A stretch of DNA of 56,031 bases from a virus. Below, piece after piece: positions 6,131 to 55,904 of the stretch (positions within the stretch are counted from its first letter, which is position 1; every line of letters starts with the position of its first letter). The notes beneath the pieces were generated by a model, which did no database searches, was not told the DNA's origin, and was given only the letters and a program-made list of their open reading frames with translations. Made by a program: the position numbers and the translations under genes. The stretch lies in IMG/VR virus record IMGVR_UViG_3300008108_000486, positions 1-56,031 of that record; one strand, 5' to 3'.

Positions 6131-6310
6131 CTAGGTAATCCTACCCTTACCAGCCCAGCCGCTACCCTTAAATACGATAGGTGTCGACCCAAAAACTTTA
6201 CGCATTTCTGATCCACACTCGCAGGGTGCCTTCTGAGGAGCCTTTCCAAACTCAAAACGCTTATCCTCTACTAGGCTGCATGAGTCACATTTATACTCAT
6301 AGGTGATCAA
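6131..6310 (-). CDS. FmdB-like zinc-ribbon protein
   Basis: A 59-residue protein starting at TTG with a strong GAGAGGAG site 6 bases upstream. It begins ITYEYKCDSCSLVEDKRFEFG and continues with CECGSEMRKVF, then GSGWAGKG: the order and spacing of the FmdB/zinc_ribbon_8 family (two CxxC or CxC knuckles, then a GxGW/FxGxG tail). Members are small regulators of unknown target. It overlaps the 3' end of whiB by 14 bases, so it is co-transcribed and probably coupled. Confidence 0.75.
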   Translation of the reverse strand: MITYEYKCDSCSLVEDKRFEFGKAPQKAPCECGSEMRKVFGSTPIVFKGSGWAGKGRIT

Positions 6311-6614
6311 ATCGGACTCCTCTCTTTCGGAGAATTATACGACGCTGCTCTTCAGTCATTCCTCCCCATACGCCGTACATCTCTGGAACCTTGAGAGCGT
6401 GTTCTAAACACTGAGCCTTTACTGGACAAGTATTACAAAGAGCAACGGCTTTCAATTCTTTTTTCTTTTTTGAAACACCGCGCTCATTGTATTCTAGAAA
6501 GAAAGACTCTGGGTCCACACTTCTACATGCTCCATCAAACTGCCACTCCCAAAGGTCGTAGACAGGGTCTAGTCTTCGATTTACATCGAATCTTGGATTT
6601 TGATAGTTAGACAT
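6297..6614 (-). CDS. whiB: WhiB-family iron-sulfur regulator
   Basis: 105 residues. Four cysteines, Cys30 and CNTCPVKAQC (Cys60, Cys63, Cys69), would hold a 4Fe-4S cluster; GVWGG (80-84) is the family turn, followed by the basic tail RRIILRKRG. WhiB proteins are restricted to actinobacteria and their phages and act on transcription through the main sigma factor; phage copies can alter host septation or superinfection. The ATG at 6614 is preferred; a TTG three codons earlier is possible. It overlaps the reductase stop codon by 8 bases. Confidence 0.93.
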   Translation of the reverse strand: MSNYQNPRFDVNRRLDPVYDLWEWQFDGACRSVDPESFFLEYNERGVSKKKKELKAVALCNTCPVKAQCLEHALKVPEMYGVWGGMTEEQRRIILRKRGVRFDHL

Positions 6615-8652
6615 TATTGGCAATTAGCTTTATCTCGCAAGCATCTGTTGTGCAATAAGCCTCGCCGATAGCATCTGCTGCTAAGCCATCATAAATACCA
6701 GAGAAGTCAATTGGGAACAACTTCATAGTTGCATCCTCATATTCTTCTTTAGTCATTTGGGTATATGGCATTTGTGGATAAGTAAAGTTGCCCATAGGTA
6801 GGAATGAAACAGTCTTTAGCTGGCCGTCATACATATGTAGAACAGTTCCTACTGAATCTGCTTCCTTCTCTGAGTCAAAAGAGATTGTTACTGAAACTGA
6901 GTTGTCAGACCAATAACGCTGTGCAGTTGCAGCAATGCTCATCTTTTCAAAGATGGTTACATCTTTCTCTGAACGCTTTGCCTTTGACTTGATTGGGAAA
7001 AAGACAACTGAAGTTGTGTCTGGAGATTCTGATGCTTGCTCTACACGATAATTAGCCATCTTGAAAAGCTGAAGCATTGGATCTGTGTTAGCAAAACGAA
7101 TAGCACGAAGGAAGTACTCTCCGCCTGGTGTCCAGTGAACTCCTGGTGATTCACCTGCAAGAATAGAAACGGTTCCAGATGGCTTAACGGTTGTGGTCTT
7201 GATTGACTCACGAATACCTAGCCACTCTGAATAAACTGTGTCGTAGTTCTTAACTACTGCATAACCTTCATCCATCCAGTCTCTGAGAACTGGTAAACCT
7301 ACAATATCTGCAAAGTTTGCAACGCCTGAGATAGAAGTTCCAATACGACGATTTCTTTGCATAATCGCGTTTGTTTCCTCCCAGTGGGTTGGAAGAAGTG
7401 TTACAGTCTTTGCATAAAGATATGCGAACTTAAGAGTGCGCTTGAAATCTTCTAGCGACTCGTGACGATTGAGATAAGTCTCAACAAGTGTGCACATCTC
7501 ATAAGACTCGAGGGACTGTTCAGCGCATGGGTTATAGCCAGCTACGCGATGATCTTTGTTATTTGGAGGATCGATTAAGCGACCATACTTGCGTGATAGG
7601 TCTAGCCAAATTACGCCGGGCTCTCCATTACGAGCAATACCTTCGACGATTGGGGAAAGATCCTGACCAACTTCTACTGCAACTGAATTGTTTGACATCC
7701 AACCCCAGCCGGGTGCAGATGCATCGTAGGAATTTCTTTCAGGAAATTTTTCTGCATTCTTCAGATTTAAAAAGTTCTCATCGTCTACTCGACCAATAAG
7801 AAGTTCAGCACTACGACGAACATTGCCAGAAACAACGCAAACGCCAATAAGGTTCCCGATATCAGCGATATCAACACGAGTAAGTTTTTCATTTTCTCTT
7901 CCATCAAATATTTTTCTAATGTAGTCGTGCAATTTTATTAACGGATCTGGTCCTGCAGCTGTTCCACCAAAAATTTTAATAGGTGCACCTGCTGGACGAA
8001 TTAGTGAGTAATCAAAATCTAGTTCTGCTTGTTCTGGTTTTAAATATGAATCAATAAGTGCTGAAGTTGAATCAACCCAACCTTCACGAGAATCTTCAAT
8101 AACAATTGTTTTTGGATTATTCGATACTGGCTTATAAATTGTAAAATCTTTATCTGCACCTTGATCATCAAAACCAACACCAACACCAAGCATTGATGCT
8201 TCCATAAGAAATGCAAATGGACGAGAAGGATCCATCTTTGTCATTTCTTTTGTGGAAACAAATGCACAGTTTTGTAGTGCTGCAGAGTTCTTCTGCTCGT
8301 TAACTAGTGGAGTTCCCATAACCCAAAGTCCGCGACCTGGTGGAGTCCACTTCAACTCAAAAAGACGCTGAAATGCTTCTTTTGCAGATGCTTGACCGCG
8401 AGCATCATTCCAAGGTAAACGGTTAGTTTTGCAGTGATCTTTTTGAATTGAGTACATGCCATTGATGACGCGCTCGCAAACATCAACCCAAGTCTCTTTA
8501 GTTCCATCTTCTTTCTTACGAGAGTAAGTGCGAAGGAAGGTTATCTCTCCTACTGAGTTACCTGCTGCATCTCTATAGCCGAAAGGAGCTTGTTTAGTGC
8601 GAAAGGAAGAAACAAAATCCTCAGAAAGCTTGAATGAAAATGCAACAGACAT
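6607..8652 (-). CDS. nrdJ: Class II (B12-dependent) ribonucleotide reductase, monomeric type
   Basis: 681 residues, near the length of the monomeric Lactobacillus-type reductase. Key residues are visible: Cys129 in NCAFVST and Cys387 in MCTLVE (redox pair), the radical site NPCAE with Cys376 and Glu378, KPSGTVS in the phosphate-binding region, and the C-terminal CTTDAC pair (667, 672) for re-reduction. It converts ribonucleotides to deoxyribonucleotides with adenosylcobalamin, independent of oxygen, so the host must supply B12. GAGGAG lies 9 bases before the ATG. It heads the operon with whiB and the FmdB-like gene. Partner in nucleotide supply: the deaminase-like gene. Confidence 0.93.
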   Translation of the reverse strand: MSVAFSFKLSEDFVSSFRTKQAPFGYRDAAGNSVGEITFLRTYSRKKEDGTKETWVDVCERVINGMYSIQKDHCKTNRLPWNDARGQASAKEAFQRLFELKWTPPGRGLWVMGTPLVNEQKNSAALQNCAFVSTKEMTKMDPSRPFAFLMEASMLGVGVGFDDQGADKDFTIYKPVSNNPKTIVIEDSREGWVDSTSALIDSYLKPEQAELDFDYSLIRPAGAPIKIFGGTAAGPDPLIKLHDYIRKIFDGRENEKLTRVDIADIGNLIGVCVVSGNVRRSAELLIGRVDDENFLNLKNAEKFPERNSYDASAPGWGWMSNNSVAVEVGQDLSPIVEGIARNGEPGVIWLDLSRKYGRLIDPPNNKDHRVAGYNPCAEQSLESYEMCTLVETYLNRHESLEDFKRTLKFAYLYAKTVTLLPTHWEETNAIMQRNRRIGTSISGVANFADIVGLPVLRDWMDEGYAVVKNYDTVYSEWLGIRESIKTTTVKPSGTVSILAGESPGVHWTPGGEYFLRAIRFANTDPMLQLFKMANYRVEQASESPDTTSVVFFPIKSKAKRSEKDVTIFEKMSIAATAQRYWSDNSVSVTISFDSEKEADSVGTVLHMYDGQLKTVSFLPMGNFTYPQMPYTQMTKEEYEDATMKLFPIDFSGIYDGLAADAIGEAYCTTDACEIKLIANNV

Positions 8653-9439: not shown

Positions 9440-9471
9440 GTTCTTATCTTATGCTTATTGTGTATGCTTGA
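9440..9471. promoter_or_regulatory. Divergent, probably leaderless promoter pair
   Basis: Only 32 bases separate two divergent start codons. Rightward, TATGCT at 9463-9468 sits 6 bases before the second GTG (9475), the distance expected for transcription starting at the codon. A second TATGCT is at 9450-9455. Leftward, a TAAGAT box ends about 5 bases before the ATG. Neither gene has a ribosome binding site. Confidence 0.5.
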
Positions 9472-10134
9472 GTGGTGACGACACCTCATTACGATGTAGC
9501 AATAGCAACGCCTGGACACTCTGTAAAAGCTGAATATGTCAGGAGTCTTGTTAAGACATGTGCCAAATTGGATGAGTGGGGTCTGAGTTATACATGGCTA
9601 AACAAATACTCAAGCTTTGTACCTAGTGCTCGAGAACTTACTGCAACTGACACCTACAGCCATAACTGGGCAACTAATGTTATTGGTTCCGGGACCTTCA
9701 GCTGTGGAAAAATCTTCTGGATCGATTCTGACATCGAATGGGAAGTTGAGGATTTCCTAAAGCTGCTGACCTCATCTGAAAGTATTATTTCCGGGTTGTA
9801 CCAGACCTCGCCTGATGGAACCGTTGCTGTGAATCGCCTTGATGAGAAGGGTCGTCCTATGAAGGTCAATAGGGCTGAGTTCATGCTGGATGACGAGCCT
9901 GTAGAGGTCGGAGGGGTAGGATTTGGGTTTGTGGCTATGAAGCCTGAAGTCTTTGAGAAAGTGCCTAGACCTTGGTTTTTGATTGATAGGGTCAAATGGG
10001 ACGAAGTGGACTTTGAGTGCAATGTGGGTGAGGATTACTCCTTCTGCAACCATGCTAGAAAAGCTGGGTTCAAAATCATGGTTGACCCCCTAGTCAGGGT
10101 CAAGCACCATAAAGAGACTGTTTACCTGCCTTAA
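9472..10134 (+). CDS. Glycosyltransferase (GT-A fold, DxD)
   Basis: 220 residues. The N-terminal strand YDVAIATPGHSV starts a GT-A fold, and KIFWIDSDIEW holds the metal-binding DSD (85-87). ISGLYQTSP and the later GVGFGFVAMKPEVFEKVPRPWF with GEDYSFCNHARKAGFKIMVDP are the acceptor-side and ED motifs of family-2-like transferases. It would move a sugar from a nucleotide donor to a phage or host glycan or modified base. GTG start, either of two adjacent codons, without a ribosome binding site. With the propeller protein and methyltransferase it may form a scattered glycan set. Confidence 0.8.
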   Translation: MVTTPHYDVAIATPGHSVKAEYVRSLVKTCAKLDEWGLSYTWLNKYSSFVPSARELTATDTYSHNWATNVIGSGTFSCGKIFWIDSDIEWEVEDFLKLLTSSESIISGLYQTSPDGTVAVNRLDEKGRPMKVNRAEFMLDDEPVEVGGVGFGFVAMKPEVFEKVPRPWFLIDRVKWDEVDFECNVGEDYSFCNHARKAGFKIMVDPLVRVKHHKETVYLP

Positions 10135-10136
10135 AA

Positions 10137-10283
10137 ACATTACAAGACATTCCGAGACATTCCAACATTACGAGATACGATTTTGTTACCAGGTAGATCC
10201 TGCGCCTTGATATAAAAAACTCTATATAACTTAATTAAGGAATGTCAGAATGTCTTGTAATGTCTCGTAATGTCGGGGGATGT
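10137..10283. repeat. Inverted pair of iteron arrays (candidate origin/control region)
   Basis: Left array (10137-10174): four ACATTMC units at about 10-bp spacing. Right array (10239-10283): five units of the complement (GWAATGT type) at 9-10-bp spacing. The 16-base word ACATTACAAGACATTC of the left array recurs as its exact reverse complement on the right. Between them lies an AT-rich core with TATATAAC and TTAATTAA. Helically phased iterons flanking an AT-rich core are typical of replication origins or multi-site operators. No replication gene is adjacent, so the role is inference. Confidence 0.7.
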
Positions 10284-10364
10284 TGGGGATTATTTTGATT
10301 ATTTTATTATCGATTATGGTATATTAGTGCCTATTCTGGATTTTTGGCTTTTAGGGGGGTAAAA

Positions 10365-10487
10365 ATGGGGTCCAAGAAAAAAGTGCAGGAAAGTGGATAT
10401 TTAAACATGCGGTCAAAAAATATAAGATTTTTGAAGGATATAGCTTTACCGCATAATTATAAAATTATATACTATGTATTGTATTAG
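10365..10487 (+). CDS. Possible 40-residue basic micro-protein
   Basis: An ATG directly after an element-X copy (GGGGTAAAAA at 10356-10365) opens 40 codons beginning MGSKKKVQESGYLNM. The product is basic with a hydrophobic Tyr-rich end. The start context matches several better-supported genes, but composition is AT-rich and no homology is known, so it may be chance. The rest of 10284-10606 has no gene; it holds AT-rich sequence and tandem TATAATCTA-like repeats at 10558-10582. Confidence 0.25.
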   Translation: MGSKKKVQESGYLNMRSKNIRFLKDIALPHNYKIIYYVLY

Positions 10488-10606
10488 TATCTATGTTTTT
10501 GTATCGCGTGTGTGCGTGCGCTACGGACCTGGCAAAAACTATAGTCACTAATATGAGCTATAATCTATAGTCTATAATCTAGGAGAAAATAAGCGTAAAC
10601 TATCCC

Positions 10607-10635
10607 TTGACTATTGATTATCGAGGGTATAGATT
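10607..10635 (+). promoter_or_regulatory. Sigma-70-like promoter
   Basis: TTGACT (10607-10612), 17-bp spacer, TAGATT (10630-10635). It lies 20 bases before the start of the first gene of the small-gene operon 10656-12466. Confidence 0.6.
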
Positions 10636-10655
10636 ATTCTCAAAGAAGGAGCGAC

Positions 10656-10835
10656 ATGAGTGATAAAAAGTTAGCTGAGATTTCTCAGGACTTAGACAAG
10701 GTTGAGTTTCGCATTAAGAAAATGGGAGATGAGATCAAAGCTTTGAGGTTGTTGGTTGAGAAAGAAGCCAAGGACATCAAAGAGATTCTGTCGATTCTAA
10801 AATTCCGAGAGGAGTTAGATAGTGCAGGAAAGTAA
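10656..10835 (+). CDS. Small coiled-coil protein
   Basis: 59 residues starting MSDKKLAEI; this ATG follows AAGGAG at the right distance, while the longer frame from 10614 overlaps the promoter. Nearly the whole chain is a charged heptad pattern (EISQDLDKVEFRIKKMGDEI), so a coiled-coil dimer is likely. First gene of a tightly packed operon. Function unknown. Confidence 0.6.
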   Translation: MSDKKLAEISQDLDKVEFRIKKMGDEIKALRLLVEKEAKDIKEILSILKFREELDSAGK

Positions 10836-13056: not shown

Positions 13057-13989
13057 ATGACGGACATCGTGCCAACAGATTTCGACGGAGCTGAAGACAG
13101 CCCGGAAAAAACATTTCCACTTGTCGATACGCCATATGACAAACGGCCCAATCTTGAAGAACTCGGTATTATAGAGATAGAGAGAGGTGTCTGTGAGGAC
13201 ACCGTAGAAAATCGGCGAGCACTTCGCCATGCAATGCTCAAATGGGATTATGTGTATGACACAACTGGGAACGCAACTGGTCACATAGCCGCTAGGTCCA
13301 TCGAACAACAACGGGACAGAGCGATGATCAGCATCAACCAGAAGAAACAACTCTTGTTAGATCCCGGAAATATCAACTCAGATTTCTTGACGGGCCTTGA
13401 TCTCCTCCTCGATGACGATGCTTCAAAGATAGTTCCGGGTTGGGTACTTGGTGCTACGAGAGTCTGGCAAAAAGAGCAGGAAACTGGCGGACCTGTTTCC
13501 GCCCGCCGCCAACCAGCAGGTCTACCCGGAAGATGCACAATGATTAAAACGGATGGTCTTCGTTGTATGTTGTGGCACAGCGGCAGAATCAAAGACGCAG
13601 GTCTGTGCAATCTCCATCTCGGCTCCACTCGTAGAACTACAAGTTCAGTGGAACGGGCCCGGGAAAAGGTAAGTCAGATTTCCATTTACGCAGTCGATGT
13701 CCTTGAGGAACTAATGGACACCGCCCAATCCGAACCAGTCAAACTCAAAGCGGCCACAGAGATTCTTGACCGTGCTGGTGTTCGTGGCGGTATCGAACTT
13801 GGCGTTGAGGTAAATGTTAATGAACGGCCAGCGGGAGAGATTCTTAGAGAGCGGCTAGAAAGACTGAAGGCCGCAGCAGTTGAGCAAGTTATTATTTCCA
13901 CAGACAACGGCGTGGAAACGCAAGAGATTTATGAAGTTACAGATGTGACACCTAGAGAAGACGGATCGGATCCAGATGCCCGGAAATAA
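13057..13989 (+). CDS. Terminase-small-subunit-like protein
   Basis: 310 residues. The C-terminal region, DVLEELMDTAQSEPVKLKAATEILDR then AGVRGGIELGVEV, matches the helical segment shared by many phage small terminases and related DNA-recognition proteins. A central Cys/His cluster (CTMIKTDGLRC to CNLHLG, about residues 165-190) is probably a zinc knuckle. The N-terminal half is acidic. A role in recognising DNA for packaging is inference: no large subunit is adjacent or elsewhere in the window, so a different DNA-binding role is possible. Confidence 0.5.
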   Translation: MTDIVPTDFDGAEDSPEKTFPLVDTPYDKRPNLEELGIIEIERGVCEDTVENRRALRHAMLKWDYVYDTTGNATGHIAARSIEQQRDRAMISINQKKQLLLDPGNINSDFLTGLDLLLDDDASKIVPGWVLGATRVWQKEQETGGPVSARRQPAGLPGRCTMIKTDGLRCMLWHSGRIKDAGLCNLHLGSTRRTTSSVERAREKVSQISIYAVDVLEELMDTAQSEPVKLKAATEILDRAGVRGGIELGVEVNVNERPAGEILRERLERLKAAAVEQVIISTDNGVETQEIYEVTDVTPREDGSDPDARK

Positions 13990-14140
13990 CAATATCGAAC
14001 AGCTTGAGGAGCTAGCGGCCCGCCTTCAGGAAGATATAATATTAGCTAAGTCCCGTGAAGAACATGTTCGTTTAACGGCACGGGCAAATGAAGCTGCAGC
14101 TATACTCCAGGAAATGAAAACTCCAGAACAAACAATTTAA
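13976..14140 (+). CDS. Small coiled-coil protein
   Basis: 54 residues beginning MPGNNNIEQLEEL and continuing as an uninterrupted heptad-type helix (ARLQEDIILAKSREEHVRL). It overlaps the previous gene by 14 bases. The first codons are an R2 repeat copy (CCCGGAAATAACAAT at 13979), so either the repeat invaded the gene start or the coding frame is fortuitous. Confidence 0.5.
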   Translation: MPGNNNIEQLEELAARLQEDIILAKSREEHVRLTARANEAAAILQEMKTPEQTI

Positions 14141-15051
14141 AGATCCGAAGCTGCCGGGCGGCGAGGGATTGCGAGCGCTTATATATAACGGTCAGCCCTC
14201 GAGCTCAGATCCATATACTGGAACGGATGTTGTTAGTTCCGGGTACAGCTAGCTGCAGATCCACAACTGCCTGTGGACAAACGGACAGACTTAGAATTAA
14301 CCCTGTACGCCTCTTGCACTTATATGACGGGTATGTTTTAATCAACACCTTGTCTCAGTGGGAGTCAACGCTCGAAAGAATCACGGGTCACTTATTCATA
14401 CCCATGCATAACCGGGCGAAGGACGATCATGACATGGGTGTTCGCGGTTTGTGATTCTTCCCAATTCGCACTCGAGTCGTACCTGCTCCCACTGGGCGTC
14501 CCTTTAAAAACAAACAACACAGGTTGTGATCAGCTGCGCCTGGAACTAACAAGTCAATGTAGCAGAGCTGCAGCTGTCAAGCTTTTTAATTTTTCATTTC
14601 CGGGAAGAGCCCTCTTCGCAAAGCGGACAAATCCCCGGTACTCCAGAAGACCATCCAGGTCCCGGAAAAAACAATGTCATCAGCGGCCAGATCTGCAGCT
14701 GCTGCCTTCGATGCATTTGGAGTTGTGAGTTCCGGGAATTAATTACACGGTTGTGGTTCTGGCGGTGGAGGCGGAGGCGGCGTGCAAGCTTAAGCCCGGA
14801 AATAACAAAACAATGGCAGCGGCCTGGGATCCGACGGGGGTCCCCCGGAAATTACAACGGCAAGTTACTGGCCAGTACAGCTGCAGAGCTCAGCGGCAAG
14901 ACATCTTGTTATTTCCAGGAGGAAGATCGGATTGTTGAATTTTCAACCAGGCGGCGAGGGATAGGGGGGTAAAAAATATAACGGTGCGGGGTCTTGACAT
15001 AGCGGCAAGGGAATGCGAGGGTATATATCCAACGGATGAGGAAGTGACGAC
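14141..15051. repeat. Repeat-laden gene-free block
   Basis: About 900 bases without a convincing gene. It holds eight R2 copies, four forward (14539, 14661, 14795, 14844) and four reverse (14230, 14591, 14723, 14906); two GGCGGCGAGGG copies (about 14159, 14951); one element X (14966-14974); many six-base palindromes (CTCGAG, GAGCTC, CTGCAG, CAGCTG, AAGCTT, AGATCT, GGATCC); and repeated AGCTGCAG. Open frames here lack ribosome binding sites and protein-like composition. Confidence 0.55.
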
Positions 15052-15489
15052 ATGCAAACATTCTTGCCATATGCAGAATTCGAACGGAGTGCACAGGTAC
15101 TCGACTACAGGAGACTGGGTAAACAACGGGTAGAGACATGGCAATTGATCAGAGCAATAAACGGTGAGACCAGAGGCTGGAGGAATCATCCTGCAGCAGT
15201 GATGTGGAGGGACCATGTCCCAGCGCTCGCAGTCTACGGAAAAGTTATTTGCGAGGAATGGATTCGCCGCGGGTACAACGACTCGATGCTGCCGCGATTT
15301 GAAGAAATCATTTCCGGGTGCAGCGAAGAGGAGCTCCAGATGCCATCTTGGCTGGGAACTGAAAACTTTCATGAGTCTCATCGCAGCAATCTGCTTCGTA
15401 AGTTCCCGGAGTACTACAGGTCCCATTGGCCAGAACTTCAAGATGACCTGCCATATGTGTGGCCTGTGGATAACTTGGTCGGGGTCTGA
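15052..15489 (+). CDS. MSMEG_6728-family protein (pyrimidine-dimer-glycosylase-like)
   Basis: 145 residues. Start MQTFLPYAEFERSAQVLDYRRLGKQRVE, middle GWRNHPAAVMWRDH, and end HRSNLLRKFPEYYRSHWPE with LPYVWPV match the actinobacterial MSMEG_6728 family. That family is related to the T4 endonuclease V fold, which removes UV-induced pyrimidine dimers; enzymatic activity in this branch is not established. A repair role fits a phage of sunlit water. GAGGAAG precedes the ATG by about 9 bases. Confidence 0.85.
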   Translation: MQTFLPYAEFERSAQVLDYRRLGKQRVETWQLIRAINGETRGWRNHPAAVMWRDHVPALAVYGKVICEEWIRRGYNDSMLPRFEEIISGCSEEELQMPSWLGTENFHESHRSNLLRKFPEYYRSHWPELQDDLPYVWPVDNLVGV

Positions 15490-15580
15490 CGAGGAGGGCC
15501 CGAAGATCCAGCCTGGAACTAACAATGTTTGAAGACATCGACAGCTGCAGCTGAATTTAAAAAATTCTTTCTGGGAATAC

Positions 15581-15607
15581 TTGACATGCATTCTAGAGTT
15601 CTATAAT
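15581..15607 (+). promoter_or_regulatory. Sigma-70-like promoter with downstream dyad
   Basis: TTGACA (15581-15586) and TATAAT (15602-15607), spacer 15; TAATAT at 15604 would give 17. Just downstream, CTAGGGAACCCTAG is an inverted repeat with a 2-base centre, placed at the expected mRNA 5' end. Confidence 0.65.
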
Positions 15608-15656
15608 ATAAATTCCACTAGGGAACCCTAGGGTTTAAATGACGAAAGGAATTGCA

Positions 15657-16097
15657 ATGGGTTACACACATTACTACTCGAAGGTCGACTCATCACGAGA
15701 CGACGCCTTGAGATTCGAAATGTTTTCAATCGGCGCTCGCCGCATCATCGAATACGCAACTACATACGACGGAATTCAAATTGCCGACGGCATGGGCGAA
15801 CAGCTTGGCCAGTGGCAATGCACAAATGAAACTGTTTGGTTCAACGGCTACGGGCCAGATTCACACGAGACCTTTAACTGGTCCATCGATTCCTCTGGAT
15901 TTGGTTTTACAAAAACGGCAAGGAAACCATACGACGCTGTGGTGACGGCATGTCTTATCCACCTCAAAGATATCTATGGAGACTTGGTCAGTATCGGCTC
16001 GGACGGAGATTGGTCAGAGTGGCAAGACGGTGCACGGCTCTACCGCAACGCAACTGGTTTGACGGCGAGCGCACCATTCGAAACAGAAGCGGCTTGA
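15657..16097 (+). CDS. MGYTHYW-type phage hypothetical protein
   Basis: 146 residues beginning MGYTHYYSKV, the hallmark N-terminus of a family common in phages and mobile elements, of unknown function. AAAGGA lies 5 bases before this ATG; the ATG at 15639 is inside the conserved leader AAATGACGAAAGGA and is not preferred. FNGYGPDSHETFNW in the centre is also typical. Own promoter at 15581. Confidence 0.75.
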   Translation: MGYTHYYSKVDSSRDDALRFEMFSIGARRIIEYATTYDGIQIADGMGEQLGQWQCTNETVWFNGYGPDSHETFNWSIDSSGFGFTKTARKPYDAVVTACLIHLKDIYGDLVSIGSDGDWSEWQDGARLYRNATGLTASAPFETEAA

Positions 16098-16207
16098 GAT
16101 AGCCCGGAAATAAGAACAACGGCGTGCCTTTAAGCGAGACCTGTGAGTCAGCAAGGCGCGTCGTTACTTTTTTGAAACAACGGCGAGGGAAAGGTGAGGG
16201 TATATAA

Positions 16208-16447
16208 ATGGGTCGCAAGATTGTGACACGGATAGAGTTTGAGTTCGATGAGGACCTGCTGTACGAGGGTTCTGATTCAACGGATGTAAGAAGTGACGAG
16301 GATGTGCTGGACTACGCAGCGGAGTGCTATGTCGACGATATTTACAACATGGTGAAGTACAACGAGTTGTATTCAGTTGCGAGGAGTCGAACAACTTTCG
16401 TTGATGACGCAGCCGCAGCTGCAGAACCCGGAAATAACAATGTTTGA
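16208..16447 (+). CDS. Small acidic hypothetical protein
   Basis: 79 residues. FEFDEDLLYEGSDSTDVRSDEDVLDYAAECYVDDIYNM is a beta strand followed by acidic helices. The last residues (EPGNNNV) are encoded by an R2 repeat copy (16427-16446), which also supplies the stop codon. GGTGAGGG lies upstream of the ATG next to TATATAA. Family not recognised. Confidence 0.5.
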   Translation: MGRKIVTRIEFEFDEDLLYEGSDSTDVRSDEDVLDYAAECYVDDIYNMVKYNELYSVARSRTTFVDDAAAAAEPGNNNV

Positions 16448-16475
16448 TGTCCAGGGCCTGGATGGCATCCCAGGG

Positions 16476-16640
16476 CCAGGAAATAATAACTTCAAGAAGG
16501 AGAAGAATTCTGGCAGCGCTGTCCCGGAAATAATAATGTTCGCAGATGTCCAGGGCCCCAGGTCATCAGCCCGGAACTTAGAATGTTTTATTGCACCAGG
16601 GTCCTGAAGACCATCACCGGGAACTGACAACTCAACAAGC
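16476..16640 (+). repeat. Cluster of R2 repeats
   Basis: Four R2 copies at 16476, 16523, 16570 and 16617, spaced a regular 47 bases, most preceded by a CCAGGGCC-type word. The span 16448-16663 carries no gene. With the copy at 16427 the series has five members, each starting 47-49 bases after the last, so the larger unit was probably duplicated in tandem and then diverged. Confidence 0.65.
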
Positions 16641-16663
16641 AGAGGACATGTCCAGTCAAACTC

Positions 16664-16693
16664 TTGACAACAATCATTTCTCATTTCTATAAT
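16664..16693 (+). promoter_or_regulatory. Sigma-70 promoter
   Basis: TTGACA (16664-16669), 18-bp spacer, TATAAT (16688-16693), consensus at both boxes. It is 40 bases before the start codon at 16733, with the leader word CAAATGACGAAAGGA between. Confidence 0.75.
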
Positions 16694-16732
16694 AAACTCT
16701 GTAATGGCAAATCAAATGACGAAAGGAAAGCC

Positions 16733-17365
16733 ATGCCAAACTGGTGCGACAACACTGTGTCCATTACTGGAACAGAAGAAGTAATCAAAAGATTAGAAGA
16801 GTTCGTAGGGAGACCAGTGGTTTCTCATGGTGAGAAAGTAGATGAACCTGTTTTTGCTTTAGGCAACATCAAACCCTCCACACCTGACCTAGACCCTAAA
16901 TACGCAATGTTCCCCTCAAAGGGCGACGACGATTGGTGGAGCAACAATGTAAATAGTTGGGGAACGAAGTGGGATGTGTTCGGCGAGGGCGTCGGCAAAT
17001 CAAGAAACAACGGAAGTGTTAGTTATAGTTTTTCGTCGGCTTGGTCCCCACCAACCCCAGTGATAGAACGGCTTGCCGAGATTTTCCCGGAAGTAAGAAT
17101 AGAGTTCAAGTATATGGAAACGGGCATGGACTTCTGGGGCGTTGAGATTTATGAGAACGGCGAGTTGGTATCCGAAGAGGGTGGTTCTATAAACCACAAG
17201 GCATACGAGGTAATGGAGTATGACGGATGCTACGCATGTCAGTCCTATGAGGAAGAGGGCGAGAGCGAGGAATACTTTGAGTATCTCCATGACGACTGCC
17301 CACCAAAAGTAGAACGGCTTGCCAAGAAAAAGAAGCGCAAGAAAAAAGAAACGGCGAGCGCATAG
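16733..17365 (+). CDS. YubB/Api92-like ferredoxin-fold protein
   Basis: 210 residues starting MPNWCDNTVSITG, the signature of the DUF1281/YubB ferredoxin-like family found on plasmids and phages, with the characteristic FSSAWSPPTPVIERLAEIFPEV and later GMDFWGVEIYENG. The C-terminus is acidic and then Lys-rich (KKKKRKKKE). Function unknown; homologues are accessory genes of mobile elements. It has its own consensus promoter and strong AAAGGAAAG site. The gap 17366-17524 has two element-X cores, three AACGGCGAG words and one R2. Confidence 0.8.
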   Translation: MPNWCDNTVSITGTEEVIKRLEEFVGRPVVSHGEKVDEPVFALGNIKPSTPDLDPKYAMFPSKGDDDWWSNNVNSWGTKWDVFGEGVGKSRNNGSVSYSFSSAWSPPTPVIERLAEIFPEVRIEFKYMETGMDFWGVEIYENGELVSEEGGSINHKAYEVMEYDGCYACQSYEEEGESEEYFEYLHDDCPPKVERLAKKKKRKKKETASA

Positions 17366-17524
17366 GGGGGTAAAAATCTAACGGCGAGGGGGTGGGGTAA
17401 AACCTGCCCCCAATCAAACGGCGAGGGAAAGACGGGAAGCTGGATCGGATCTCCCGGAACTGAAAACGGATAGATGACGCACAGCTCAGCACGCTAGACT
17501 TGACGGATAGAGAAAGGAACACCA

Positions 17525-17812
17525 GTGGGTCGAATACATTATTTTGATATTGACGGTAACTATGGAAACGCTGACAAAATAACAGTGATAGGCACAGAGC
17601 AATGGATACGAGAGGATTTCCTATTACTTCGTGAGTGTAAGGACGAGGATAGATATCTAGTCGCTCGTCTTGTATCTGACTGGATTACAGAGGGTCGAGA
17701 TAACAAGAAATACAAAAAAGAGTTCAAGAAGTATGGACTAAAGCCTCACGACACAATTCCCGAAGTTCCTGAAATCCCTGAAATCTTGAAAGAGGTTGAT
17801 GTAGCCAACTAA
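17525..17812 (+). CDS. Hypothetical protein
   Basis: 95 residues from GTG, with AAAGGA upstream. The N-terminus MGRIHYFDIDGNYGNADKITVIGT resembles a small beta domain; the C-terminus is Lys-rich, then PEVPEIPEILKEV. Family not recognised. Followed by an R2 copy in reverse orientation (17817) and a strong terminator. Confidence 0.55.
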   Translation: MGRIHYFDIDGNYGNADKITVIGTEQWIREDFLLLRECKDEDRYLVARLVSDWITEGRDNKKYKKEFKKYGLKPHDTIPEVPEIPEILKEVDVAN

Positions 17813-17869
17813 TAATGTTAGTTCCCAGCCACAGTGCTTTGCTGACCTGAACGAACTAACTATCTAACT

Positions 17870-29907: not shown

Positions 29908-30489
29908 ATGAAGCAAGATAGTTTAGAAAGTAAAATCCTTTTTCCTACCAAATGGGTAGATGAAAATTGTTGGTATTGGCTTGGACAACTCAATAAAAAT
30001 AATCCTTCATATGTCGTAAAAGTAGAAGGCAAGAGAATTGCAATTAGAGTGCGCCGACTAATGTGGGAAATAAATGTTGTTGATAACAAAGAAAAACCTA
30101 TAACAAAGCGTGATGTAATAATTTCAGTGTGCGGAGATAATTTATGTGTAAACCCTTCTCACTTGAAAAAATATACAAAGACAGAAGCACTTGACTTGGG
30201 CTACCTAAATCAAGCGCAGAGGACACAAGAAAGATTTGCAAAAATTACTCATTGTCCTAGAGGACACGAATACACAGAAGAAAACACTGCCTATAACACA
30301 GGCAAGTGGGCTACCAATAGAACTAGAACTTATAAGTGCCGTTATTGTAAAACTTGTAATCGTGAGAGAGCGGCTCAAAGAAAACTCAAACTAGGTGCAA
30401 CACGACTTGTAAAAGATTACGAAGGCAGAGGACTACTAACTACCGAACTTATGGACATAATCTTCAAAAGACCAGTGAGAAAGTTCTAG
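29908..30489 (+). CDS. HNH-endonuclease-like protein, probably degenerate
   Basis: 193 residues. CGDNLCVNPSHLK (about 76-88) is the second half of a phage HNH motif, and HCPRGHEYTEENTAY with CRYCKTCNRER is the zinc/DNA-binding tail typical of actinophage homing HNH enzymes. The first catalytic histidine, normally in a V.H.CDN context, reads ISVCGDN, so cleavage is doubtful. It may be a decayed homing endonuclease or a DNA-binding derivative. It sits as a single-gene transcript, as expected for a mobile gene. Confidence 0.7.
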   Translation: MKQDSLESKILFPTKWVDENCWYWLGQLNKNNPSYVVKVEGKRIAIRVRRLMWEINVVDNKEKPITKRDVIISVCGDNLCVNPSHLKKYTKTEALDLGYLNQAQRTQERFAKITHCPRGHEYTEENTAYNTGKWATNRTRTYKCRYCKTCNRERAAQRKLKLGATRLVKDYEGRGLLTTELMDIIFKRPVRKF

Positions 30490-34408: not shown

Positions 34409-34453
34409 TTGCTTCTCCCTAGTTAGTTAGTTGATCGTTTGACCAACAGGGAA

Positions 34454-34483
34454 AGCATATAATACTTGTCTGCACTTTCGCAA
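34454..34483 (-). promoter_or_regulatory. Leftward promoter of the conserved-spacer family
   Basis: On the minus strand: TTGCGA, 18-bp spacer AAGTGCAGACAAGTATTA, TATGCT. Confidence 0.7.
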
Positions 34484-34825
34484 GACATGTCATAGATTTT
34501 TTGTAGGCATATCAAAACATAGACATGCTTGCTTGTCCTAGATTTTTCCTATGCTTGGTTTGTAAGTTACTTGATAAAGCTTATGAGTAACTTACTTGGA
34601 AGTAACAAGTTAGTTTGATGATCTTCTTTATAAGTCTAGATTAGAACTTGATAGTTCTATATAAGTAACTTCTATTAGAAAACTTTTTTATTTGTAAAAA
34701 TATTTTTGTTAGAAAAATTTTTTGTAATCAAAAAAGATTTTTATTATTTATTATGTAAAGAAAAATAAATAATAAATAGATCATAGGCATGTATAGGCAG
34801 GTTATTGGATATTTTTTAGTCAAAA
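34484..34825. other. AT-rich palindromic region, candidate origin
   Basis: A gene-free stretch. GTAAGTTACT (34562-34571) and AGTAACTTAC (34586-34595) form a perfect 10-bp dyad around AAGCTT. AAGTAAC/GTTACTT words recur at about 34601 and 34665. From 34680 to 34790 the sequence is almost pure A/T, with the inverted ATTATTTATT/AATAAATAAT at 34741-34778. AT-rich DNA with repeated dyads at a switch in gene direction is compatible with a replication origin. An attachment site is not supported, because no integrase is present. Confidence 0.45.
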
Positions 34826-34916
34826 ATGGGGGGTAAAAAATATGCGGAACCGCATGAAAAAATACCCCGGAACGATTTCAAAAAGTCCAAAAAACACCCC
34901 CTGTCTTCTCCGGGGT
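34826..34916. repeat. Last element X plus two dyads
   Basis: Element X core at about 34830-34840, then the perfect dyad ATGCGG-AA-CCGCAT (34843-34856), then ACCCCGGA/TCCGGGGT arms about 38 bases apart. No gene up to 35018. A packaging or control site is possible. Confidence 0.4.
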
Positions 34917-51203: not shown

Positions 51204-52039
51204 TGGAATACATTGGTCGCAATGGTTCACAAATCCTCTATGTAAACGATACTCTTGGAACAATCGTTGACGAAGATAAGAATCTAGTTCTCTCTGTAGA
51301 TATCAAGGAACCACTTATTGCATCTGCTAAATGGGACCCTTCAGATGATGACCGACCAACTGGGGTTGCCGTAGAACTTGCAGCAGCAGCTCTTACAGAT
51401 TTAGATATTAAAGTTTTTTCAAACTCAGATCGTATGTACACAATTCCAGACTCCGTAGTTGCAGAAGCAAAGCGTGGTCTTGAGTGGCGTAAAGAAGAAG
51501 ACCGCGGTGGAACATCTGTAGGTCTTAATACCGCCCGCACTCTTGCTCGCGGAGGTCAAATTGGTATTCGCAAGATTCGTCATATCGCAAAGTATTTCCC
51601 ACGCCATGAAGTAGATAAAAAGGGTAAAGGCTATAAGCCAGGAGTTAAGGAGTATCCAAGCAATGGTCGCATTGCATGGGCTCTTTGGGGTGGAGATGCC
51701 GCCAAGTCTTGGGCAACTGCCATTGTTAATCGTGAAAACAAAAAAGCAAAATCAAATTCGATTACTGCTGGTGGATTAGATCCAATGGAATACGAGATGC
51801 CAAAGCGCATCAACTATGACTCTTTCATGCATTCAAGAACAATGCCTGAAGATAATGTAATTGAATTTTATGCTCGTGTTCGTCTAGATGGTTCAGGTAT
51901 TGACCGTCTTTACAGAATTGAACCAGAAGGTCACATTTATGTTTGGGATGATGGCCAACGAACCATTTATTGCTCAAAAGGTAGAAAAACTATACCCAGA
52001 AGAGTCAAAAATGTATCTAGATGCATCTCAAGAAATTGA
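51203..52039 (+). CDS. N-terminal part of the giant prohead-protease protein
   Basis: 278 residues as read. Residues 90-180, AKRGLEWRKEEDRGGTSVGLNTARTLA then IGIRKIRHIAKYFPRHEVDKKGKGY and GRIAWALWGGDAAKSWA, form a domain common in actinophage capsid-protease polyproteins. The true reading leaves this frame after HIYVWDDGQ (about 51955): the plus-one frame continues EPFIAQKVEKLYPEES without a gap, so the last 26 residues here are probably spurious. GGAGGAGAAG precedes the ATG. Confidence 0.75.
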   Translation: MEYIGRNGSQILYVNDTLGTIVDEDKNLVLSVDIKEPLIASAKWDPSDDDRPTGVAVELAAAALTDLDIKVFSNSDRMYTIPDSVVAEAKRGLEWRKEEDRGGTSVGLNTARTLARGGQIGIRKIRHIAKYFPRHEVDKKGKGYKPGVKEYPSNGRIAWALWGGDAAKSWATAIVNRENKKAKSNSITAGGLDPMEYEMPKRINYDSFMHSRTMPEDNVIEFYARVRLDGSGIDRLYRIEPEGHIYVWDDGQRTIYCSKGRKTIPRRVKNVSRCISRN

Positions 52040-55000
52040 TGGGGAACTTCTTGATGAAATGGCTCTTCCAGATGAAATGTCTGGAGATTGGGATTTCATG
52101 GATGACAGCCTTACTGCAGCTGTAGGTGATGGTGTCTACACTCCAGAAGAGCGTTCAGAAAATGTGTCTAAGCAACTTCGTGATAAATCAGGAAAGTTTG
52201 CCAAAATGGGTGGCCGTGTAATTATTGGTGGTCGTCCACAATATCAAGGAAACATTCGCTCAATTGATCCAGTAACTAAAACTGTTGGTGTAGAACTTGA
52301 TAACGGAAGTGTAATTAATGTTTCTGCTTCTATGACAGAGCCTTTAGAAAGCTACACACCGATGCCAACTATGGTTGCTGAAGGTGAATTAGATACTTCA
52401 GGAATTCTTGGTGAGCCTCGAACTCCTATGGATTCTCCAATTCGTATGCCTGGAACTCTTCCACCACTAAACGCAGCAAATCTTCAGTTAATGCTGACAA
52501 ACTATCCTCAATGGGTATCAGAACAAAGACTTTCACCAGAAGCTACACCTACTACTCAAATAAAAACTTCTAGAGCAGATTCAGTACCTAGCAGAGTTCC
52601 TCAACAGCCACAGAATGTTGAAAAAGAAGTTTCTAAAGATAGTCCTTTATATAAATACTATCCAGAAAAGTTTACAGACTGGGATAAAGAAGTTAATGCT
52701 TACAACATTCCAGAATTAAAGAAGTGGCTTGAAGCTGGTCCAGAGTCTCGTCGTAAATATAATCCTTTTGTAGACCCTAAAAAGACAGAAAAGTTTGTAG
52801 AGCCAAGAGGTATTAAATCTCCTAAGTTAGACAAATACGGTCAACCTCTAAAAGCATCAGCTATACCAAACGATATGACACCAAAAACATCGGATGTCCC
52901 TGTTCTTCATATGGCAGTAGTTTCACCAGATGACCCACAAGCAGTTATGGATTTAGTTGCTTTAGTGCCAGCTAGTGATAAGAGTAATCAGCCAGCGGCA
53001 TTTATAAGAAAAGATGGAAAGTGGATTGCAGATCCTCAAATGTTGATGGATCTTCGTAGTGTTACCCCACCACCAGTAGTTGTTTTAGATGACGCTACTT
53101 TAATAGATGTTTTATCTCAAGTAGATGACAAACCAATTACTGCAGCTGGAGGACTTGATAGAAATCGTGGTCAGGCAGAGAAGCTTCGCCGCTACTGGCT
53201 ATATGGCAAAGGTGCAGCCAAGATTCGCTGGAGAACTCCAGGAGATTGGACTCGTTGCTATCGTCAACTAGCTAAGTACATGGGTCCTCGTGCCAAGGGT
53301 TATTGCGCCCTTCGTCATAAGGAAGCAAATGGCTACTGGCCAGGAGATAAGAAAAATCAAGAGATGTCATCATTTACTGTAAATACTTTGCGTGATTATG
53401 ATGAACTTTTGAGCAGTTTTGTGCTTCGTGCAAAAGCAGCAGATGCTCGTGCAAGAGTTATGACTGCTGGCGGTTCTATGGAAGAAGAGTACGGATCTGA
53501 GTTTTATATTCCTCTAGTTATCCCAGAGGGTGTTGAATCTGGTGACGGAAGAGTTATGGATAAAGGTGCTCTCAGCATGAGAGAACTTCCACTTCCTCTT
53601 CTATGGCAAATACAAACAGGCGAAGGACATAATGGTTCTGTTGTAGTTGGCAAGATTGTTTCTATGGAACGCACTGAAGATGGTATTGGTAATGCTAAAG
53701 GCTATTTCGATAAAGGTGCTTATGGACAGGAAGCTGAGCGTTTAGTACGCGGTGGCTTTATTCGTGGAGTTTCGGCTGATCTCGATCAATTTGAGGCAGA
53801 CGAAGAGGTTAAAGAGGCTAAAGAAGGCTCTGACACCAAGATAGAAAGCGGTAAAATAAAGATCAAGAAAGCACGAGTCATGGCTGTGACTTTGGTGCCG
53901 AAGCCAGCTTTCCAAGAATGCTCAATTCAACTCGCCGATGAGATGGCTGTGACTTTGGTGCCGAAGCCAGCTTTCCAAGAATGCTCAATTCAACTCGCCG
54001 ATGAGCTCGGCGGAGAAGAGGAAGAAGTGAACATCCCTGACGGCGTATATGTCGAAGGAGTAAATCCTCTCGATGCTTCGGCGCTTGTTGCTTGCGGAAT
54101 GATTGCTGGAGCAATTCCAGTGACACCGCCAACAGAGTGGTTTAACAATCCAAAGCTAAGTGGACCAACTCCTCTTACTGTGGATGATGATGGCCGTGTT
54201 TATGGACACATTGCAGCTTGGCATGTCGATCATATTGGCATGAGCATGGGAACCAAGCCTCCAAGAAGTAGAAGTGGTTATGCATATTTCCACACAGGTG
54301 TAGTTCGTACAGAAGACGGTAGTGATGTGCCCGTAGGGCAGTTAACTCTTGCGGGGGGACACGCATCGTTGGAAGCATCTGCTTCTGAAGCAGTTCGTCA
54401 TTATGACGATACAGCTTCTGCTATTGCAGATGTACATGCTGGAGAAGATGCCTTTGGTATCTGGGTTGCTGGATCAGTTCGGCCAGGTTCTACTCCAGAG
54501 CAAATCCGTGCACTTCGTGCATCAGCACCATCTGGTGACTGGAGACCAATCAAGAACTCTCTAGAACTTGTTGCTGTATGTCAGGTAAACGTTCCAGGAT
54601 TCCCAATTGCTCGTGCTCGTGTTGCTTCAGGTTCTGTAATGGCTCTTGTTGCGGCAGGTGCTCAAGTACTTGCACAGTTGAAGTCAGACCCTCTATCAGA
54701 AATGCAAAAGAGAATTGAAGAATTGGAGAAGCCACAGAAAGAAGCTTTGGTTGCTTCGGCAAACGCTGCTCGTGCTCGTATTCAAGACTTCCAAAACGAG
54801 CAACTAAAAGCTCAAAAAGCACTTATTGCTGCAAAAGTTGCACAAGTAAAAGCTGATGCAGATTCAGATTTTGACTATATGAATCAAACTTTTGACGAAA
54901 ATCCAGAGGCAGAACTAGCTGTTATTTCTCGCCGAGTTCGTATGAGACTTGCTGAAGAAGGTAAGGCTCTTCCAGACGGTTCTTACCCAATCCGTAACGA

Positions 55001-55904
55001 ACAGGATTTAAAAAATGCTGTCCGTGCCTATGGCCGTTCTAAGCCAGGCTACCGTGGCAGAGTGAAGCGTCACATTATGAAGAGAGCCATCGGGCTTAAT
55101 AGACAAGATTTAATTCCAGACGCATGGAAAGGTGCTGCCTCAGACCTAGACGATATCGTTGCCACATTCAAGGCCCGTGCTCAGGTTGCAGCAGCTTTAG
55201 TTACAGACCCTTCAAAACCACTTTCTATTAAAGAAATTACAGACAATTTAGAAGCAGTTTTTTCTGCAAAAGAATTTGCTGAAGATATTGTTGCTGAAGA
55301 AGATTTAGAAGGTTTAACAGAAGAAGAAATTGAGGTTTTAAAGCAGGAAGCCAAGTCTCGTAAGGCAGCAGAAAAGCAGTCTGAAGAGGATCGTGCTAAA
55401 TACACCCCAGAAACACAGCCTCGAGATGCATCAGGAAAATTCCGTCAAGTATTAGCCCGTATCAAGCAAAACCTTGGAACCTCTGGTTTGGACCGAGTTC
55501 TAGACAAGATTGAAGAGGCTGAAAACTTTGACAATACTGGAGACTACGCTGGAGCATCTAAAGCTGCAGCTGAACTACTCGAGATTATTGATCGTTTGGA
55601 CACTGGAGCGCTAAATGCTGAAGCTTTGGAGAACGTTCGCTTAAGCGCTGGTGAGCTTGGAAAGGTCATTGCAAACCTTCCTTTCGCCTTCGGTGAAGAG
55701 TCTCAAAAGATCCGTTACTCAGATATGCCTCCAGCCTTGAAAGATCTTATGAAAGACATGGTTAAGCGTGTGGAGGATAAGATCGGGCAGGAAGATGCCG
55801 ATATAGCCACAGAGGGCTTAAAAAAGTTCATCTCTGGCAGCGACCTTTACAACCAGTCCGAGATCTCTAGCGAGATGGCAAAGCTTCTCCGCTTACTTAC
55901 CTAA
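51888..55904 (+). CDS. Prohead protease / scaffold-like polyprotein, main part
   Basis: 1,338 residues from the first ATG, though authentic sequence starts near 51960 in continuation of the gene before. Order: YTPEERSENVSKQLRDKSGKFAKMGGRVIIGG; GGLDRNRGQAEKLRRYWLYGKGAAKIRW; a protease domain (about 530-720) beginning EEYGSEFYIPLVIPEGVESGDGRVMD, with candidate His in GEGH and Ser in IRGVSADLD; a 21-residue tandem duplication; a long domain with HIAAWHVDHIGM; SYPIRNEQDLKNAVRAYG and HIMKRAIGL; then QPRDASGKFRQVLARIKQNLG, echoing the first motif, and a helical end like a scaffold. It would process and shape the prohead. Confidence 0.82.
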   Translation: MVQVLTVFTELNQKVTFMFGMMANEPFIAQKVEKLYPEESKMYLDASQEIDGELLDEMALPDEMSGDWDFMDDSLTAAVGDGVYTPEERSENVSKQLRDKSGKFAKMGGRVIIGGRPQYQGNIRSIDPVTKTVGVELDNGSVINVSASMTEPLESYTPMPTMVAEGELDTSGILGEPRTPMDSPIRMPGTLPPLNAANLQLMLTNYPQWVSEQRLSPEATPTTQIKTSRADSVPSRVPQQPQNVEKEVSKDSPLYKYYPEKFTDWDKEVNAYNIPELKKWLEAGPESRRKYNPFVDPKKTEKFVEPRGIKSPKLDKYGQPLKASAIPNDMTPKTSDVPVLHMAVVSPDDPQAVMDLVALVPASDKSNQPAAFIRKDGKWIADPQMLMDLRSVTPPPVVVLDDATLIDVLSQVDDKPITAAGGLDRNRGQAEKLRRYWLYGKGAAKIRWRTPGDWTRCYRQLAKYMGPRAKGYCALRHKEANGYWPGDKKNQEMSSFTVNTLRDYDELLSSFVLRAKAADARARVMTAGGSMEEEYGSEFYIPLVIPEGVESGDGRVMDKGALSMRELPLPLLWQIQTGEGHNGSVVVGKIVSMERTEDGIGNAKGYFDKGAYGQEAERLVRGGFIRGVSADLDQFEADEEVKEAKEGSDTKIESGKIKIKKARVMAVTLVPKPAFQECSIQLADEMAVTLVPKPAFQECSIQLADELGGEEEEVNIPDGVYVEGVNPLDASALVACGMIAGAIPVTPPTEWFNNPKLSGPTPLTVDDDGRVYGHIAAWHVDHIGMSMGTKPPRSRSGYAYFHTGVVRTEDGSDVPVGQLTLAGGHASLEASASEAVRHYDDTASAIADVHAGEDAFGIWVAGSVRPGSTPEQIRALRASAPSGDWRPIKNSLELVAVCQVNVPGFPIARARVASGSVMALVAAGAQVLAQLKSDPLSEMQKRIEELEKPQKEALVASANAARARIQDFQNEQLKAQKALIAAKVAQVKADADSDFDYMNQTFDENPEAELAVISRRVRMRLAEEGKALPDGSYPIRNEQDLKNAVRAYGRSKPGYRGRVKRHIMKRAIGLNRQDLIPDAWKGAASDLDDIVATFKARAQVAAALVTDPSKPLSIKEITDNLEAVFSAKEFAEDIVAEEDLEGLTEEEIEVLKQEAKSRKAAEKQSEEDRAKYTPETQPRDASGKFRQVLARIKQNLGTSGLDRVLDKIEEAENFDNTGDYAGASKAAAELLEIIDRLDTGALNAEALENVRLSAGELGKVIANLPFAFGEESQKIRYSDMPPALKDLMKDMVKRVEDKIGQEDADIATEGLKKFISGSDLYNQSEISSEMAKLLRLLT
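53880..54005 (+). repeat. Exact 63-bp tandem duplication in the protease gene
   Basis: Bases 53880-53942 and 53943-54005 are identical, encoding MAVTLVPKPAFQECSIQLADE twice in frame. Only one copy fits the usual end of a prohead protease domain (a VTLVPxPAF word). Zero divergence means a very recent event or an assembly artefact. Confidence 0.95.

Follow-up and report, generated by a model that had tools for sequence, protein, structure and literature searches.

Positions 10137-10283 of the window (the whole 56,031-bp IMG/VR virus record analysed here, a fragment of an actinobacteriophage genome) hold a 147-bp cluster of ACATTMC-type heptamers in two opposed arrays. This array is real, non-random and lineage-specific, and its absence from the matching site in the nearest relatives makes a recent acquisition probable. 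Our preferred but tentative interpretation, to which we give somewhat less than an even chance, is that it may be a cis-acting multi-site protein-binding array rather than a replication origin, and it is best read as lying beside an early rightward promoter region.

Results

Structure of the opposed arrays

The nine units named in the original prediction, which was made from the DNA letters alone, were all recovered: seven match ACATTMC exactly and two, at 10247 and 10277 in the right array, carry one mismatch each. The predicted spacing of about one helical turn in two opposed arrays was likewise seen, as steps of 10 or 8 bp, with spacings of 10, 10, 10 and 8 bp from the outer end of the right array inward and with the 8-bp step innermost in both arrays. 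The exact 16-base word said to be shared by the arrays was confirmed as ACATTACAAGACATTC, which occupies 10137-10152 and recurs as an inverted copy at 10248-10263. Against seven exact units within 147 bp, the maximum was two in 30 second-order Markov sequences and likewise two in the remainder of the window; when one mismatch was allowed, the count was nine against a null maximum of six. Together the two arrays form the top-scoring local inverted repeat of the window (score 18, versus a maximum of 14 across 20 null genomes). Only half of the core between them is AT-rich as had been proposed, with 10% GC in the right 29 bp (10210-10238) versus 47% in the left 36 bp. Coordinates are collected in Table 1.

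Table 1. Features of the array and its surroundings (window coordinates).
Feature	Position	Strand	Details
Upstream gene	9472..10134	+	PHROG 1574; weak match to phage glycosyltransferase family; 96% amino acid identity in G001 and G002
Window-specific segment	10135..10286	.	Holds entire array; 5-7 bp in its place in G001/G002
Left array	10137..10171	+	Four units: ACATTAC 10137, ACATTCC 10147, ACATTCC 10157, ACATTAC 10165; spacings 10, 10, 8
Inverted repeat made by both arrays	10137..10273	.	33-nt arms 10137-10169 / 10241-10273, 85% complementary, 71 nt apart
Core between arrays	10174..10238	.	65 bp, 31% GC overall
Right array	10239..10283	-	Five units: ACATTCC 10239, ACATTCT 10247, ACATTAC 10257, ACATTAC 10267, ACATCCC 10277
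Dyad B	10467..10575	.	Inverted repeat; 21-bp core CGCGTRTRTGYGTGCDCTACG at 10505-10525; ~250 bp right of array
Promoter-like site	10607..10635	+	TTGACT-N17-TAGATT, 9/12 match; in conserved alignment block; ahead of next rightward gene

Absence of the array from related phages

The window derives from a freshwater actinobacterial phage. It carries a WhiB gene (6297-6623), and its ribonucleotide reductase and portal proteins are nearest to those of Actinomycetia phage DSL-LC01 (78% and 76% amino acid identity, respectively), a 129-kb genome from Dishui Lake (OQ999401; PMC10611076). Two relatives, G003 and G009, are circularly closed; they measure 134-135 kb, and their terminal repeats are 87 and 123 bp long. 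The full genome would thus be roughly 135 kb, of which about 40% is in view and some 78 kb probably lies outside the window.

The closest relative, G001, shares 86.1% nucleotide identity with the window, and G002 is about equidistant from both (83.5% to the window, 83.7% to G001). Alignments of the window to these two genomes are continuous on either side of the array and interrupted only there, where ~153 bp in the window face 5-7 bp in the relatives; the BLASTN breaks fall at window 10133|10287 for G001 (9721|9727) and at 10132|10288 for G002 (10783|10791). A search with the upstream protein gave 12 loci, the last of which, L017, is distant, and in none of the 10 relatives' loci readable beyond the stop codon does the array follow the gene. 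Pattern searches found the array nowhere in 11 related records, no copy of the opposed arrangement in IMG/VR and a single match, in a Vibrio genome, in 257 Gb of prokaryote genomes; because these searches demanded exact units, diverged copies would escape them. BLASTN against phage and plasmid collections returned only short matches (E 0.4 or worse), and neither the window nor its relatives contain further GACATTMC clusters. The original prediction had named lack of conservation of the repeats among the findings that would count against it, and they are indeed not conserved: the corresponding sites of G001, G002 and the other relatives examined lack them.

Shorter probes were tried in IMG/VR and rejected. 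The 16-mer ACATTACAAGACATTC hit 34 stretches, mostly as chance-like matches in coding sequence and never within a repeat array, and the tandem pair GACATTMCNNGACATTMC hit 36, a few with up to five exact units per 200 bp and none with the opposed 4+5 arrangement. The junction words GTCTTG (G001) and GACATT (G002) also occur in the array; as deletion scars they were rejected, 6 bp being too short. Because G001 is the closest relative, G002 is about equidistant from both, and the two alike lack the array, the simplest history would be that the lineage of the window gained it once; two losses from an array-bearing ancestor, one each in G001 and G002, would be a less simple but possible course.

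Genomic context

Two rightward genes flank the array, which is separated by 2 bp from the stop codon of the upstream open reading frame (ORF), at 9472-10134. Placement of the array at the switch between leftward and rightward arms, as originally proposed, was not borne out: leftward genes extend no further than 9439 and the switch occupies 9440-9471, ~670 bp upstream. The intergenic region that contains the array is ~520 bp long and non-coding, with a conserved non-coding block to the right of the array (about 10375-10655), and rightward genes resume beyond it at the ATG at 10656. The array's neighbours are a glycosyltransferase-like gene and small genes without assigned function.

Discussion

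A putative protein-binding array

The nine heptamers would all face nearly the same side of the helix, with four directed inward from one end and five from the opposite end. We envisage that an oligomeric DNA-binding protein, of the phage lineage or of the host, may load cooperatively on each arm, and that the two protein-bound arms would then pair over the 65-bp core to give a compact loop. Such a loop could insulate the transcript of the upstream gene from the early rightward regulatory region that starts ~100 bp downstream, or could tune that region. Multi-site operators consist of repeated sites, set in phase, in regulatory DNA between genes, and the array shows this pattern. Its helical phase, its opposed halves and the recurrence of units inside each arm are better explained by protein sites than by a plain hairpin, for which such recurrence would be superfluous. 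Thus, where the original prediction left the choice between an iteron origin and a multi-site repressor complex, the latter, or another nucleoprotein complex, stays the best reading, given units that are helically phased, oppose each other and occupy regulatory intergenic DNA; the former is unsupported.

Several observations weigh against protein binding. No match to HTH_3, RHH_1, HTH_17 or Rep_3 was found in the window and six related records; few window genes are absent from both G001 and G002, and none of these is an evident DNA-binding regulator. As only ~40% of a ~135-kb genome is covered, the gene for the cognate protein could lie outside the window. The lack of further GACATTMC clusters implies that the protein would be a single-site regulator, and the equivalence of the array to what relatives carry is positional only.

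Alternative explanations

It is unlikely, in our estimate, that the segment is a non-autonomous mobile element resembling a miniature inverted-repeat transposable element (MITE), in which a ~149-bp insertion would have inverted-repeat ends and the heptamers would be subterminal transposase-binding sites. Prokaryotic MITEs are, like this segment, intergenic insertions of ~150 bp with inverted ends in AT-rich DNA. The size falls within the 50-500 bp of the MITE definition (PMC10969869); the segment lacks coding capacity, its terminal inverted arms of ~30 nt match at 80-85% and are nearly flush with its ends (10136-10165 / 10255-10284, 80%), and its boundaries against the empty sites of G001 and G002 are sharp, as expected of a discrete insertion. 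However, young elements should show a target-site duplication, and none of at least 5 bp is present at the segment ends. Unlike MITEs, moreover, the segment is single-copy and repeats its units within the arms: within the limits of exact-pattern searches, neither a second copy nor an autonomous relative emerged from the window, the 11 related records or IMG/VR, the match in prokaryote genomes is isolated, and no copy was found in the phage and plasmid collections. Quite unlikely, too, is an RNA element, in which the arrays would be transcribed with the upstream gene as a long hairpin in its 3' untranslated region, blocking read-through or shielding the mRNA end. The site immediately behind a stop codon would suit this role, and the predicted fold is stable (-47.6 kcal/mol, z = -4.8), with a 24-bp stem of 16 + 8 bp. 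Yet the pattern of an intrinsic terminator, a GC-rich stem with a U-tract behind it, is not seen: no U-tract follows the stem, and a terminator scan, covering loops of 3-8 bases, had no match there. The hairpin would also leave the repetition inside the arms unexplained, relatives manage without it, and it has no homologues on which covariation could be assessed.

We regard as very unlikely an iteron-type origin at which an initiator would bind both arrays and melt the AT-rich half of the core. In lambda ori and the P1, F and RK2 plasmids, as here, short sites are arrayed in helical phase; the initiator sites there adjoin AT-rich DNA, and the core here is 31% GC overall and strongly AT-rich over 29 bp. 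The phasing and opposed arrangement of the array resemble those of origin arrays (PMC5043065). The array supplies several helically phased sites (nine units at 10/8-bp steps) and a 29-bp stretch at 10% GC, and the cumulative GC skew of the window turns upward at about 9.4 kb. In contrast to iteron origins, its units are of 7 bp, opposed, and not conserved in relatives expected to share the replication system, being absent from those at 84-86% nucleotide identity and from all others examined. The search for a cognate initiator suggested in the original prediction yielded no Rep_3-type protein (Rep3_N) among seven records, other initiator types and the unseen remainder of the genome being outside that search; the annotated DSL-LC01 genome has replication proteins of its own (primase/helicase, DNA polymerase I, helicase) and no iteron initiator among its annotations. 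GC skew is an ambiguous guide here, but in G003 and G009, the closed relatives, its global minimum falls ~14-20 kb to the left and not at the array. The single-copy, lineage-specific nature of the array also speaks against an origin. The least probable of these explanations, and an extremely doubtful one, is that the array is the partition centromere (parC/tubC/alpS-like) in a lineage of extrachromosomal prophages. Dam and Gerdes (1994, as cited in PMC5016525) are said to have described the parC of plasmid R1 as two arrays of roughly 10-11-bp repeats flanking a promoter segment, and the window has a similar plan, with two arrays of about five ~10-bp repeats around a non-coding segment. The R1 repeats, however, are direct and located at their own par operon, whereas those of the window are inverted; no par operon with a ribbon-helix-helix adaptor was recognised beside the array, nor any par gene nearby, RHH_1 had no match in the window and six related records, and the window showed no recognisable lysogeny genes. 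A precedent is the ParMRC-like AlpACS system of a Corynebacterium prophage (PMC5539076).

A conserved dyad beside a repeat-prone slot

Dyad B is present in all relatives at the equivalent place, with a diverged core in L013 and L014 and a deletion in the left arm in L010. Its arm sequences vary (TATTAGTgaCTAT, TATGTAGgACTAT, GTATACnnGATTAT, TGAACTATT) while complementarity is maintained: in each of nine sequences, only 0-2 of 300 shuffles match the observed score. In DSL-LC01 it lies directly upstream of the first rightward gene (L116 18125-18212); this phage was not among the matches listed in a BLASTN search with window block 10375-10660. A degenerate pattern of the dyad B core matched only these phages in IMG/VR. 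Folded as RNA, the whole conserved region gave z-scores of -1.8 in the window and -7.3 in G003. Both dyad B and the array are inverted repeats in the same intergenic region, and the arms of dyad B vary among lineages; dyad B, however, has a conserved GC core found in every relative, whereas the array is of unrelated sequence and confined to the window. Were there an origin or master switch in this region, dyad B would be the better candidate, though its role is putative.

The slot after the upstream gene is filled differently in related phages. In G003 the same gene is immediately followed by a different dyad, also opposed, with 36-nt arms (78%) that are 50 nt apart and resemble the arms of that genome's dyad B; the more distant DSL-LC01 carries, upstream of dyad B, three palindromic repeats of 21 bp (AAGTTACCGAGCGGTTACTTA type); and G001 and G002 have nothing. 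Because the window, G003 and DSL-LC01 each carry differing repeats there, the slot appears to be often array-bearing and tends to hold repeat arrays of unrelated sequence. In all six compared genomes this region, which makes up 0.3-1.1% of each record, contains one or more high-scoring local inverted repeats, and the best of them ranks first within its own record in the window and second in G003 and G009. Improbable, but worth stating, is that in the early switch region of these phages the replaceable slot beside the conserved dyad (CGCGTRTRTGYGTGCDCTACG core), where each lineage would carry an array of its own (GACATTMC units in the window, TATGTAGGACTATA in G003, GTTACCG palindromes in DSL-LC01, empty in G001 and G002), might act as a lineage-specific compatibility or exclusion determinant, its specificity changing when one array replaces another and not through point mutations.

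Should protein binding be confirmed, early-switch control arrays of freshwater actinobacterial phages would be seen to be gained whole and replaced fast between close relatives, as would be expected of exclusion or immunity specificity. Otherwise, the array would serve as a warning that what looks like a textbook iteron array may turn out to be an accessory insertion. In both cases, the comparison suggests the conserved dyad ~250 bp away as the place at which to map origins and promoters.

Other features of the window

Two dispersed motifs were noted. Motif TATATAnnAGAGGGGTAAAAA accounts for the most-repeated 12-mers of the window, with 29 copies of GGGGTAAAA on both strands between 10356 and 34840, and also occurs in G001; its copies often end at a start codon (e.g. 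27499, 31074, 22334), and it resembles a compact promoter joined to a ribosome-binding site. Motif CCCGGAAATAACAATG has 13 forward and two reverse copies in the window, mostly intergenic (13979-17453 and 30552); it is also found in relatives and is absent from DSL-LC01.

A second leftward/rightward switch lies at 34409-34826, with a counterpart in G003 (73054-73173). The non-coding DNA there is long and AT-rich, contains GTTACTnnnnAGTAAC-type palindromes and may be another origin or operator candidate. In G003 TTACTAGT is repeated, and the GTTACCG palindromes of DSL-LC01 (17758-17853) are similar.

Among the coding regions, a 193-amino-acid Cys-rich ORF at 29908-30489, absent from G001 and G002, has a weak, sub-cut-off Pfam match to a transposase domain. 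A fusion-like protein is encoded at 966-2051, with an ABC-type ATPase region at its N-terminus and a GNAT acetyltransferase at its C-terminus. Within the ORF at 51888-55904 lies a perfect 63-bp tandem duplication (53880-54005) that appears single-copy in G003 and G009.
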